From a virus: 64,000 nt of DNA. Below, in pieces: positions 4,674-27,588 of the stretch. The position numbers and the translations under genes were made by a program. The DNA is taken from positions 1 to 64,000 of IMG/VR virus record IMGVR_UViG_3300028837_002527, one strand, 5' to 3'. The notes under the pieces are model-generated. The model was given only the letters and a program-made list of their open reading frames with translations, ran no database searches and was not told where the DNA came from. Each line of letters starts with the position of its first letter. Position 1 is the stretch's first letter.

Positions 4674-4906
4674 AGAAATTATTATTGTTGGTAGTAAGTA
4701 TTGTATTACTGTCTGGATGTGGATTATTTAATACTTATGTGTATGATGAAGTAACAGTTAAAAATCTTAAAGTATTAAGAGGGATGTACATTACTGATAT
4801 TGAGAGAGCAAAACAGGGAAATCTTCCTGATGCTTTCTACAATGCTACATTAGAAGTTTTTGATTCATCTATAATAAGAGAAAAAGCCAAGAAAGGGGAT
4901 AAGTAA
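4670..4906 (+). CDS. Small lipoprotein
   Basis: 78 residues. A signal peptide (MKKLLLLVVSIVLLSGC) ends in a good lipobox, LSGC, with cysteine 17 as the lipidation site. The mature part is short, polar and helical. Next to holin-like and helical membrane proteins it could be part of the lysis cassette, for example an outer-membrane spanin subunit, or an exclusion lipoprotein. GGAGG is directly upstream. Confidence 0.75.
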   Translation: MKKLLLLVVSIVLLSGCGLFNTYVYDEVTVKNLKVLRGMYITDIERAKQGNLPDAFYNATLEVFDSSIIREKAKKGDK

Positions 4907-9877: not shown

Positions 9878-10186
9878 ATGAAAAAGAAAGTAAAAAAAGT
9901 AAAGAAAATAAAAAAGGTTAAGATAAAAATAAAGAAAGTGAAAAAAGTAAAGAGGGATAAAGTAAAAATAAAGAAAGTAAAAAAAATAAAGAAAGTTAGA
10001 AAGATTAAGAAGATAAAAAAAGATGTATATATAGACAAAATTAATTACGATAGAAAGTATCAAACAAGGAGAGTTATAGAATGCATGGAGTGTAAGAGAA
10101 ATGTTCTTGTTGCTATTGAAGCAAAAAGAGTTACTTGTCATATATGCTTGTTAAGAAAATTAAAGAACAAAAAAGAAAGGGCTTGA
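9878..10186 (+). CDS. Lysine-repeat protein with zinc ribbon
   Basis: 102 residues. Residues 1-48 are an almost pure run of K-(K/V/I) repeats. The C-terminal part has CMEC and CHIC knuckles. The N-terminus is probably a non-specific nucleic-acid binder. The same repeat opens the terminase large subunit and the replication initiator, so it looks like a shared basic module. AAAGGAG precedes the start. Confidence 0.7.
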   Translation: MKKKVKKVKKIKKVKIKIKKVKKVKRDKVKIKKVKKIKKVRKIKKIKKDVYIDKINYDRKYQTRRVIECMECKRNVLVAIEAKRVTCHICLLRKLKNKKERA

Positions 10187-13059: not shown

Positions 13060-14541
13060 ATGTCTGATAAAATGGCTGATAGCCAAACTGAACGGGACGA
13101 GGTTCAGTTAGTTAAGGAAGAAAAATTACCATCTACTATTAATATTGAAACGTATGTACCAGAAGCAGACAGAAAGGGATATCGTTTTCGTTCTACTGGT
13201 TTTACTACTGTACATCAAGTTAAACGTTTGAAACAACTTCACTATGACATGTATAAAAAGCACCCGTGGCTTCGTGCTGCTGTTGAGAAGATTGCAAAGG
13301 TTGCAGTTACTGTTGGACACGATATAAAGTATGTAGGTAAAGGTGAAGTTGATGAAAATGCTAAAATGTTAATTGAGAATTTTTTTAAATCTCCTAATCA
13401 AACTGAGTCATTTGCAGACATTATGTGGGTAACTGTTATTCAATTAAAATTAAATGCAGAATGTTTTTGGGAAGTAGTTAAAGCTTCAGCAGGTTATCCT
13501 AAAGACTTTTACACATTAAATGGGGATATTTCCCCTAATGTTGATTTACACGGATATCCAATTAAAGGTAAACCTGCTTATGTTCAAAAAGTTATGTCAG
13601 AAGAGGCTAATTTTGATTATGATGAAGTAATATGGATAAAGTTTTCAGACCCATTTGGAAAATTGCGTCCTACATCTCAATTTGAATCACTTGAACAATC
13701 GACATTACTTGACATATATGCAATGAAACTAAATAAGTCAATATTTACTAGAGGAGTTAAAAAGGGAAAAGCATTTATTTTTCCTGGACAATTAGGTGAA
13801 GAACAAATAAAAAGGAATAGAGCGCAAATATCAATGTTACATGAAGGAATTGAAGGTGCGTATAGTGCTTTTATTGCTTTGGAAGGGGAGTGTGAAATTA
13901 AAGATTTAAAATTGGAAGAAACGAAAATGGAAGGAAAGGATTTAAGAGAATATGTAAGAGACGAGATGCTTGGAGTTATTGGAACTCCTATATCTAAATT
14001 AGGTATTTCTCAAACGCAAGTAAAAGAGTCTCAATATATAAATAAAACCTTTTTTCAAGAAGAAATAAAACCTATTCTTGATTTGATTCAAAATAAAATT
14101 AATAGTTATTTGGATTTACTTGGTATTTACGATTATCGTTTTATATTTAAGAAGACTTCAATGAGTGACCAAAAAGATGTTGCGCGTTTGGTAGATGTTT
14201 TATCTAAGCATGGAGCAGTTAGTTTGAATGAAATAAGGGAAATGGTTGGTTTATCTCCAAAACATAATACAACATTTAATAAACCTTTTATTATGTTTAA
14301 GGACGGAACATTTATATTTTGTGAGGAGATGTATGATAATAGAAAGAAAATTATTGAAGAAAGACAAAAGAAAAAGAAAGAACAGCCAACGTTTAGTTTT
14401 GATATTGGACCAAGGAGGATTACAAGGAAAGGAACAGAATTTCCGTCTCTTGTGGATGATATTAATTGGGAAGAGGAAGATACAAAAGACGAAATAGTTA
14501 TAAGTGAAAAGGAAGGGGAAGATGTTCACCCTTTTCCTTAA
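13060..14541 (+). CDS. Portal protein
   Basis: 493 residues, the dodecameric ring at the capsid vertex. The sequence has the portal layout: an N-terminal arm, a clip/stem region, and the conserved wing segment with EYVRDEMLGVIGTPISKLG near 305-325, followed by a long helix (PILDLIQNKINSYLDLL). It lies directly after TerL and before a MuF-like frame. Its last codons contain a CCCTTTT slippery heptamer (14529-14535), so a fraction may be made as a portal-MuF fusion of about 800 residues. Confidence 0.88.
   Translation: MSDKMADSQTERDEVQLVKEEKLPSTINIETYVPEADRKGYRFRSTGFTTVHQVKRLKQLHYDMYKKHPWLRAAVEKIAKVAVTVGHDIKYVGKGEVDENAKMLIENFFKSPNQTESFADIMWVTVIQLKLNAECFWEVVKASAGYPKDFYTLNGDISPNVDLHGYPIKGKPAYVQKVMSEEANFDYDEVIWIKFSDPFGKLRPTSQFESLEQSTLLDIYAMKLNKSIFTRGVKKGKAFIFPGQLGEEQIKRNRAQISMLHEGIEGAYSAFIALEGECEIKDLKLEETKMEGKDLREYVRDEMLGVIGTPISKLGISQTQVKESQYINKTFFQEEIKPILDLIQNKINSYLDLLGIYDYRFIFKKTSMSDQKDVARLVDVLSKHGAVSLNEIREMVGLSPKHNTTFNKPFIMFKDGTFIFCEEMYDNRKKIIEERQKKKKEQPTFSFDIGPRRITRKGTEFPSLVDDINWEEEDTKDEIVISEKEGEDVHPFP
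14529..14535 (+). promoter_or_regulatory. Putative -1 ribosomal frameshift site (portal to MuF)
   Basis: CCCTTTT fits X XXY YYZ in the portal frame (CAC CCT TTT, two codons before the TAA). A -1 slip enters the frame that stays open to 15464 and encodes the MuF-like protein. An AGGAAGGGG stretch at 14510-14518 sits about ten bases upstream, where dnaX-type sites carry a stimulatory SD. No obvious downstream stem-loop. Confidence 0.6.
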
Positions 14542-15464
14542 TCGGAACAATATTAGGTTATTTTAAAATTGCACCAGAGAATATTGCAAACTTTCTTACT
14601 GAGTATTATCATATTTTATTTTCAAATAAAACAGTTCAGACTGATACTGCATTTAAGTTTATAAGGTCAAAAAAATTAGAAGATATAGTTGAAAAAGCAA
14701 CACGAAATTTAGAGAAGGATTACGATAGAATAAAAAACAAAACAATTAAAGTTTTTAATAAGGCTGTGAAAGAAAGAAAGTTAGCTAAAGGCGATGATGA
14801 AGCAACAATTGTTATTGAAAGTTCTATAACAGGAAAAGAATTAAATGTTTCTCTTATTCAAGGAAATAAAGAATCGTATCTTTTTGGTTATAAAGAAATA
14901 GCAAAAGCACTTGGATACAAAGATGGTGATAGAGGTAAAGTAGGGATATTTAAATTTAATTATTTATCTCCAGAAACATTTGAAGCAACAAAGAGCGCTG
15001 CTTCAAGACTGTCTAATAAAACTATAAGGGATATGATGAATGGAGTATCTCCAAAATTTGCAAAAAGAAATGTTAAAAATATAATTCGTACAGGTATTAA
15101 AGAAGGGAAACCAGCAACAGATATTGCAGCAGAATTATCTAAATTTTTTGATGATACTAAGTTTTGGAAAGTAGCAGAAATTGTAAGAACGGAGATACCA
15201 AAAGCTTATAATATAGGAAGGATAAATGCAGCAAGAACTGATGGGATAAAAAAAGCAAAGATTGAACTTGGCGCTAAACCTTGTCAATGGTGTGTTGATA
15301 ATTCTCCAGATGTACGAACGTTAAGACAAGCAGAAGAGTATATGAACGCTCACCATGTTAACAACAATTGTACGGTGATACCGTTAATTGATTTTAGCTA
15401 TTATGGCATTAAACCTCCACCTGGTTATTTACCAAGTGAGAAGGAAGGACCATTGCTAACATGA
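14535..15464 (+). CDS. MuF-like head morphogenesis protein, probably made by -1 frameshift
   Basis: The frame is open for about 309 codons but has no ATG, GTG or TTG before GTG 14766, although the roughly 80 upstream codons look fully coding (LIGTILGYFKIAPENIANF). The C-terminal part has the MuF signature: CQWC near the end, then HHVNNNCTVIPL. MuF proteins are minor head proteins involved in assembly or ejected with DNA. Alternatives are an independent GTG start at 14766, or an assembly indel joining the frame to ATG 14522. Confidence 0.8.
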   Translation, partial: SLIGTILGYFKIAPENIANFLTEYYHILFSNKTVQTDTAFKFIRSKKLEDIVEKATRNLEKDYDRIKNKTIKVFNKAVKERKLAKGDDEATIVIESSITGKELNVSLIQGNKESYLFGYKEIAKALGYKDGDRGKVGIFKFNYLSPETFEATKSAASRLSNKTIRDMMNGVSPKFAKRNVKNIIRTGIKEGKPATDIAAELSKFFDDTKFWKVAEIVRTEIPKAYNIGRINAARTDGIKKAKIELGAKPCQWCVDNSPDVRTLRQAEEYMNAHHVNNNCTVIPLIDFSYYGIKPPPGYLPSEKEGPLLT

Positions 15465-16102
15465 AAAGGGGAATGACAACAAATAGATTTATAAATCAAA
15501 TTAAAGCTGATGGATTAGGTTTTAAAGTTTGTATTAAGTGTAAAGTTAAAAAATTAGTAAGTGAATTTTGGTTGTATGGTGGAGATAGATTGGGGAGAAG
15601 AGCAAAGTGTAAAAATTGTATGAAAAAGGATAGTGAAGGGTGGCTTAAAAAAGATGGTAATAAAGAAAAGCGTAAGGAGATAGCAAAAAAGTATCGTGAT
15701 AGAAATCCGAAAAAAATTTATAAGAGAATTAGAAAGTGTATAATGAAGAATAGAGACCATTATAGAGCATATGGTAAAAAGTACGATGAAAAGAGAGTAA
15801 AAGAAGTACCAGATAAACTTAAAGAATGGAATACAAAAGCTACTGAAAAATATGCAAAGGAAAATTTAGAAAAAAGGATTGTTTACGGTATTGTACAAGA
15901 AGCTTTAAGAAGCGGAGAGTTAATTCGTCCTAATAGATGTTCAAGATGTAATAAGAAGTGTAAACCACAAGGACATCACGAAGATTATTCAAAACCACTT
16001 GAAGTAGAATGGTTATGTGATTTGTGTCATAAGGATATTCATTATGAAAAAAGGCGTTTGGTAGAAAGAGAATTGAGAAAGTCCATAAAGAAATATGGAT
16101 AG
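15461..16102 (+). CDS. HNH endonuclease (homing type)
   Basis: 213 residues. An N-terminal CIKCKVKK ... CKNC zinc motif (about 24-50) is followed by a basic helical linker and a C-terminal HNH nuclease (CSRCNKKC, GHHEDYSKPLEVEWLC, CHKDIHYEK, about 160-200). It is inserted between head genes and overlaps the MuF stop, typical of free-standing phage homing endonucleases. It probably plays no structural role. Confidence 0.85.
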   Translation: MKRGMTTNRFINQIKADGLGFKVCIKCKVKKLVSEFWLYGGDRLGRRAKCKNCMKKDSEGWLKKDGNKEKRKEIAKKYRDRNPKKIYKRIRKCIMKNRDHYRAYGKKYDEKRVKEVPDKLKEWNTKATEKYAKENLEKRIVYGIVQEALRSGELIRPNRCSRCNKKCKPQGHHEDYSKPLEVEWLCDLCHKDIHYEKRRLVERELRKSIKKYG

Positions 16103-26786: not shown

Positions 26787-26836
26787 AGAAATTATTATCT
26801 TTGGCAAATTGTAATGAAGGAAAGGGGTAAGTGAAA

Positions 26837-27340
26837 ATGAGTAAAGAAGATAAAAGCAAAAAAAATAAAAGTGATAGTGTTGCAAAAGAAGTTATTAGTG
26901 AAGATGAATTGGGTATGTTGATTGGAAAGACAAAAACTTATTTAATTGGAAAAAAGAAATTTATTGTAAAACCATTAGTAATAGGAGAATTTTATTCATT
27001 ATTTCAACATATTGTTGAGGTTGTTAGTATTGTAATTTCAGCAAATCCAGAATTAATGACAGGAGACATTGGAGCAAAGAAAATTTATGAACCTGAAGTA
27101 ATATTTGGGTTTATAAAATCTTCAGAAAAAGCTTTAGATAAAGTGTATGATATTGTAGCAATGGTATTAAAGGCAGATAAGAAGTTTCTTTTAGAAAATC
27201 TTAAGATTAGCCTGTTTGTGAGTATTATTGGAGATATTATTGAATTAAATGATATTTCGGAGATTGTTGCAAATTTTACGAGAATTGGCTCTGGGATAAA
27301 AAAGGAATTGAAGAAGATAGCCAAGCCACCTGGAGCATGA
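26837..27340 (+). CDS. Tail assembly chaperone (G-like)
   Basis: 167 residues, helical, with a charged N-terminus. It precedes the tape measure and has an A AAA AAG slip site (27298-27304) near its 3' end, the hallmark of gpG/gpGT chaperones that coat the tape measure during tail assembly. ATG 26837 is preferred to GTG 26831 because AAAGGGG lies nine bases upstream. Confidence 0.8.
   Translation: MSKEDKSKKNKSDSVAKEVISEDELGMLIGKTKTYLIGKKKFIVKPLVIGEFYSLFQHIVEVVSIVISANPELMTGDIGAKKIYEPEVIFGFIKSSEKALDKVYDIVAMVLKADKKFLLENLKISLFVSIIGDIIELNDISEIVANFTRIGSGIKKELKKIAKPPGA
27298..27304 (+). promoter_or_regulatory. -1 ribosomal frameshift site (tail chaperone)
   Basis: AAAAAAG reads A AAA AAG in the frame of the first chaperone, the most efficient bacterial -1 slip. 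The shifted frame (GIEEDSQATWSMIFEHF...) is open into the second chaperone gene at 27337. Gene order matches the conserved G/GT arrangement in tailed phages. Confidence 0.85.
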
Positions 27341-27588
27341 TATTTGAACATTTTGCCAATTACGGATGGACTAAAGAATACATTATTAAAAATATGACTT
27401 ATAAACAAGTTAAGTTATATTTGCAAGCATTTTATAAAAAGAAGGAAATAGAATATAATGCAATGGTTAAATCTATGGGTTCAGGTGTTTCGCAACCTGA
27501 AAGCGCATTTTCAGGTGGAATTAAACCTATGCAAGATTTTGAACTTTTGGATTTTGGATTATCTCACGATAAAGGAAATAAAAAATAG
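27337..27588 (+). CDS. Tail assembly chaperone, T extension
   Basis: 83 residues if started at ATG 27337, which overlaps the previous stop. It is more likely expressed mainly as a -1 frameshift extension of the upstream protein. The WSMIFEHFANYGWTKEYI segment, with YGW followed by a helix, is typical of the T domain that binds the tape measure. The helical YKQVKLYLQAFYKKKEI follows. Confidence 0.8.
   Translation: MIFEHFANYGWTKEYIIKNMTYKQVKLYLQAFYKKKEIEYNAMVKSMGSGVSQPESAFSGGIKPMQDFELLDFGLSHDKGNKK

Follow-up and report, generated by a model that had tools for sequence, protein, structure and literature searches.

A conserved candidate −1 frameshift site joining portal and MuF genes in uncultured bacterial viruses

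How does a virus make a MuF-like head protein whose reading frame opens inside the portal gene and offers no start codon at the junction? Portals are rings of twelve subunits, and a head contains a few MuF proteins, some three in the case of SPP1 gp7. The arrangement stands in a stretch of 64,000 nucleotides, here called the window, from virus record IMGVR_UViG_3300028837_002527 (full record 68,767 bases). An earlier sequence-only reading had proposed a −1 slip that fuses the two proteins, and this proposal is supported by a conserved heptamer, a MuF frame at −1 and a junction without a start. Together, this makes it very probable that a conserved programmed −1 ribosomal frameshift yields a portal–MuF fusion in these uncultured bacterial viruses.

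Reading frames at the portal–MuF junction

The portal ORF, which follows a terminase gene, matches Pfam Phage_portal over the portal core (PF04860; E 1.8e-27, residues 72–397), and its 3′ end reads GTT CAC CCT TTT CCT TAA. The sequence-only reading had placed CCCTTTT in frame at this end, with the TAA one codon on, and had described the MuF frame as open from 14508 with GTG 14766 as its first start; all of these positions hold (Table 1). The −1 frame is free of stops from 14508 to 15464 and contains no ATG, GTG or TTG between 14508 and GTG 14766. A zero-frame heptamer that a stop soon follows, while the −1 frame stays open, is the layout of a dnaX-type −1 site. Portal and MuF do not share a single continuous frame: TAA or TAG separates the two domains in the window and in the three divergent lineages described below.

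Table 1. Features of the portal–MuF junction, in window positions.
Feature	Position	Strand	Description	Profile matches
Portal protein gene	13060..14541	+	493 aa, 0-frame product ending ...HPFP-TAA	Pfam Phage_portal PF04860, phrog_12, phrog_2662
SD-like purine stretch AGGAAGGGGA, putative stimulator	14510..14519	+	~9–10 nt upstream of slip site	
Slippery heptamer C_CCT_TTT	14529..14535	+	in X_XXY_YYZ register; invariant in four lineages	
0-frame stop TAA	14539..14541	+	one codon past heptamer (L025: TAG, two codons past)	
−1 frame extension, MuF-like head protein	14535..15464	+	309 aa after portal Phe492	PHROG 2468, 115, 2662

The downstream protein matches PHROG 2468 (E 5.5e-8), as well as phrog_115 and the MuF (C-terminal) part of phrog_2662; its 15.3 bits against Pfam Phage_Mu_F (PF04233) fall short of the cut-off (29.6 bits). 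The gene order terminase–portal–MuF–capsid fits the MuF assignment. An AlphaFold model of the MuF part (mean pLDDT 46) was too poor to use. The phrog_2662 profile, 717 positions long, spans portal and MuF; the 801-aa fusion scores 133.6 bits against it in two stretches, compared to 113 and 24 for the separate parts. A free-standing endonuclease gene (phrog_2340; 15461–16102) overlaps the end of the MuF frame by four bases and lies before the next head gene.

Conservation of the heptamer and of the −1 frame

Over the 68.8-kb record, the + strand has two copies of CCCTTTT and the other strand 18; among the predicted genes on the + strand (18,664 codons), a single copy is in slippery register. 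Two further IMG/VR records from other samples are 100% identical to the window over more than 11 kb spanning the slip site. Our comparison set comprised four lineages, all metagenomic: the window, L016 and L017 (found by a terminase scan; L016 is identical in two samples) and L025 (found by a portal-alignment scan). Their portals share 40–55% pairwise identity. The search at the DNA level found no match among phage records, scans with single MuF, portal and capsid sequences returned identical records or nothing, and a genome collection scanned with MuF and portal yielded no relatives. A further record, L044, with a 29% capsid match, has a portal without MuF behind it and without a slip site there.

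In the window, L016, L017 and L025, respectively, the codons CAC, GAC, GAC and AAC are each followed by CCT TTT, then by one codon and TAA in three lineages and by two codons and TAG in L025. MuF lies in the −1 frame, without a usable start at the junction, in all four. In the portal codon alignment (1,524 positions), no other nucleotide stretch identical in all four lineages matches ACCCTTTT in length, and the last 40 codon columns of the portal are poorer in invariant nucleotides than the whole (18% vs 30%). Among eight invariant Pro columns, only the slip-site CCT keeps the same codon in all four lineages. Given the amino acids, the probability that codon usage would yield NNC CCT TTT in every one of the four lineages is ~4e-5, on the only roughly valid assumption of independent lineages; the slip-site amino acids are themselves unexpected in so variable a portal tail. 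The heptamer is therefore more than a chance occurrence, being invariant across lineages this divergent, and its conservation goes beyond protein constraint. That a chance heptamer was unlikely had been argued from the window; the comparison of homologues proposed at the time bears this out, with three divergent lineages keeping the heptamer, the −1 MuF frame and the absence of a start codon.

The −1 frame, in turn, is conserved as protein from the slip site on (PFSLI, PFSLI, PFYVI and PFWAI, then PE....FL...Y), and shows no protein conservation across the four lineages before it. From this point, the MuF of the window is 55%, 47% and 35% identical to those of L016, L017 and L025. Over the 77 codons past the slip site, window and L016 share 30 identical residues, and their codon-position differences (33/28/51) are distributed as in a reading frame under selection. 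The roughly 80 startless codons that had looked coding in the window alone thus prove to be conserved as protein in four lineages. Two of the homologues have peculiarities further downstream. In L016 (11403–13130), MuF carries a Pro-rich linker and a C-terminal extension bearing a HEYGHH zinc-peptidase-like motif, with weak Pfam matches, below cut-off, to metallopeptidase-type families; this would be an effector-like domain on MuF, and in a fusion it would be tethered to the portal. In L017 (~10080–10115), the MuF frame breaks downstream of a duplicated SDTEIANEIS stretch, which has the look of faulty assembly or of an expanded repeat.

Other routes to MuF and signals around the slip site

Could MuF be made as a separate protein instead? 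Termination–reinitiation might occur at a near-cognate ATC or ATA overlapping the portal stop (TA-ATC, 14541–14543), a geometry like that of coupled TAATG junctions, and the −1 codon at the stop is indeed ATC, ATC, ATC and ATA in the four lineages, encoding an invariant Ile. However, ATC and ATA are very poor bacterial starts, and these codons have no SD at a workable distance (−1.4, −3.2, −1.6 and −2.0 kcal/mol). Alternative MuF starts pair with −1.4 to −3.5 kcal/mol as compared to −4 to −11 kcal/mol for most genes of the module; since most of these genes have an SD and the Ile codon does not, reinitiation is unlikely. It would also leave the invariant heptamer and the SD-like stretch far upstream unexplained, and the portal stop of L025 differs in place and kind. 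We consider this route improbable, if the least so of the alternatives.

Still less credible is a one-base sequencing or assembly error that hides the true MuF start, ATG 14522, after AGGAAGGGG. This ATG stands 8 nt past AGGA, opens a 14-codon ORF and is a one-base change away from the MuF frame, but three records are identical across the site, and the three divergent lineages show the same frame relation with no such ATG, for which reason we rejected it as the MuF start. The identity of three records and the same anatomy in four lineages rule out a local sequencing error as well as a recent mutation. Nor do we give any real weight to a MuF that starts at the internal GTG 14766, its first canonical in-frame start, with the ~77 codons upstream as a remnant: the codons before this GTG are conserved as protein (17–32 identities over 76–77 positions, with a third-position excess in most pairs), the first canonical start falls 36–79 codons past the slip site at four different places in the four lineages, and the SD of GTG 14766 is weak. 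RNA polymerase slippage on the T-run would likewise give a fusion and is equally hard to credit, as known transcriptional slippage needs homopolymers longer than the TTTT found here and the conserved unit is the entire X_XXY_YYZ heptamer.

Ribosomal −1 slippage at the heptamer, the reading we favor, might be stimulated from upstream. SD-like sequences lie 6–12 nt upstream of the heptamer across the four lineages. In the window, AGGAAGGGG (14510–14518) ends 10 nt before it, and the best anti-SD pairing of the purine stretch reaches −7.9 kcal/mol at 9 nt spacing; the values at the homologous place are −11.7 (L016), −11.7 (L017) and −6.1 kcal/mol (L025). Positions that pair equally well make up 5% of the portal in the window, 0% in L016 and L017, and 10% in L025. 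The putative stimulator thus appears convincing in L016 and L017 and only plausible in the window and L025. Of the dnaX-like signal about 10 bases upstream that had been pointed out in the window, the presence stands, but its strength is moderate there and weak in L025. Downstream, no stem-loop is common to the four lineages, and folding is ordinary (z-scores of −0.5, −0.1 and −1.4 in the window, L016 and L017), except perhaps in L025 (−2.1); these scores refer to nested folds, with pseudoknots outside the model. Help from a phage-encoded tRNA was rejected, the only one found being for Leu.

Predicted products and known systems

What would the junction produce? On CAC CCT TTT CCT TAA, the majority of ribosomes would terminate with the 493-aa portal. 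Some would pause with tRNA-Pro and tRNA-Phe on CCT TTT, probably assisted in pause and slip by pairing of AGGAAGGGGA with 16S rRNA, shift by one base so that the tRNAs sit on CCC TTT, and continue in the −1 frame (TCC TTA ATC ...) through the MuF ORF to 15464. The predicted minority product is an 801-aa portal–MuF fusion with the junction peptide ...EDVHPFSLIGTILGYFK / ...EGEDVHPFSLIGTILGYFK. One gene would then supply two portal forms at a set ratio. The fusion loses no part of the portal and should for this reason enter the twelve-subunit ring, and fusions borne by the ring would bring MuF domains, in limited number, into the head interior. We infer that a frameshift of roughly 10–25% would place one to three fusions in each ring of twelve. 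If true, a slip site that turns a share of the portals into portal–MuF is a direct and testable answer to the unequal portal:MuF ratio.

In measurements on E. coli, motifs of the type H_HH.U_UU.Y, to which C_CC.U_UU.U belongs, rank with the −1 motifs that slip most efficiently (PMC4066793), and C_CCU_UUU is the slip site used by West Nile virus (PMC11507841), to which these phages would add a conserved natural example from a bacterial virus. The window also holds a second recoding site of the phage group, in the tail-chaperone G/T pair (26831–27588). These genes have the classical frameshift layout, and A_AAT_TTT occupies the equivalent position in three lineages (window, 27271; L043, 6963; L047, of the L016/L018 lineage, 4513), which suggests that slipping by −1 at a UUU codon is probably commonplace in this group.

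Recoding at a portal gene combines two things that are already known, −1 frameshifting in phage virion genes and single-gene portal–MuF fusions. The latter are found in Parageobacillus phage JGon-2020a, whose portal belongs to the same Pfam family as that of the window, and in Microbacterium phages of clusters EA3, EA5, EA8 and EB (PMC7302621). As in the window group, portal is followed by MuF in one polypeptide (phrog_2662 included); in contrast to it, the ORF is continuous and puts MuF on every portal subunit. That such fusions exist argues that the portal ring tolerates an attached MuF. E. coli dnaX resembles our site in its heptamer, the SD-like sequence ~10 nt upstream and the close stop, but has a defined downstream hairpin, and frameshifting shortens its product whereas it would lengthen the portal. 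Lambda G/GT (Xu et al. 2004) and SPP1 17.1/17.1* are, like the portal gene here, recoded virion or assembly genes with two forms at a set ratio; they are other genes, however, and the window group has its own G/GT with A_AAT_TTT.

The closest parallel is Brevibacillus phage Emery, whose gp4/gp5 (KC595516, 3171–5350) entered the literature not as a portal but as a head morphogenesis protein, SPP1 gp7-like and annotated with ribosomal slippage (PMC4168068, PMC4909266). Emery gp4 matches Portal_T4 (PF07230) just below the cut-off (E 4.8e-4), and an annotated relative likewise points to a T4-type portal; gp4 is probably the portal of this phage, and gp5 would then be a recoded portal–MuF fusion. 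Its slip site, T_TTT_TTA at 4718, lies near a stop, the −1 MuF ORF has no start until ATG 4880, and an SD-like GCGGAGGAAG stands ~11 nt upstream of the heptamer (−9.5 kcal/mol). Emery thus shares with the window group a gene at the portal position, a terminal heptamer, an upstream SD-like stretch, a near stop and a startless −1 MuF, but differs in its unrelated portal type and in its heptamer. In the two relatives of the Emery portal that we found, the head gene downstream stands by itself, and neither shares the recoded arrangement. This suggests at least two separate origins of portal–MuF recoding, in the window group and in Emery. Such recoding had been thought new when the site was first described; that part needs softening, as Emery gp4/gp5 was already annotated as ribosomal slippage, whereas the comparative evidence and the phage group are additions. 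Emery is the one annotated recoded portal–MuF pair found in the open-licence literature (an earlier report elsewhere is possible), the main texts of recoding surveys of 2013 and 2014 do not mention portals, and, within that literature, the window group would be the first with comparative evidence. Recoding of head genes may be missed in phages when MuF is annotated with a late start or as a separate gene.

We lean toward the view that frameshift frequency sets the number of MuF-tethered portals per twelve, giving mixed rings and metered internal proteins, and that this device recurs, at least twice with Emery included. In SPP1, the portal gp6 binds the MuF protein gp7 and takes a few copies of it along into the head, three for each virion by estimate (PMC6316719, PMC4493119). 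The functional pair, portal and MuF, is the same; there, it is encoded by separate genes and held together non-covalently, whereas in the window group a slipping ribosome would make the link covalent.
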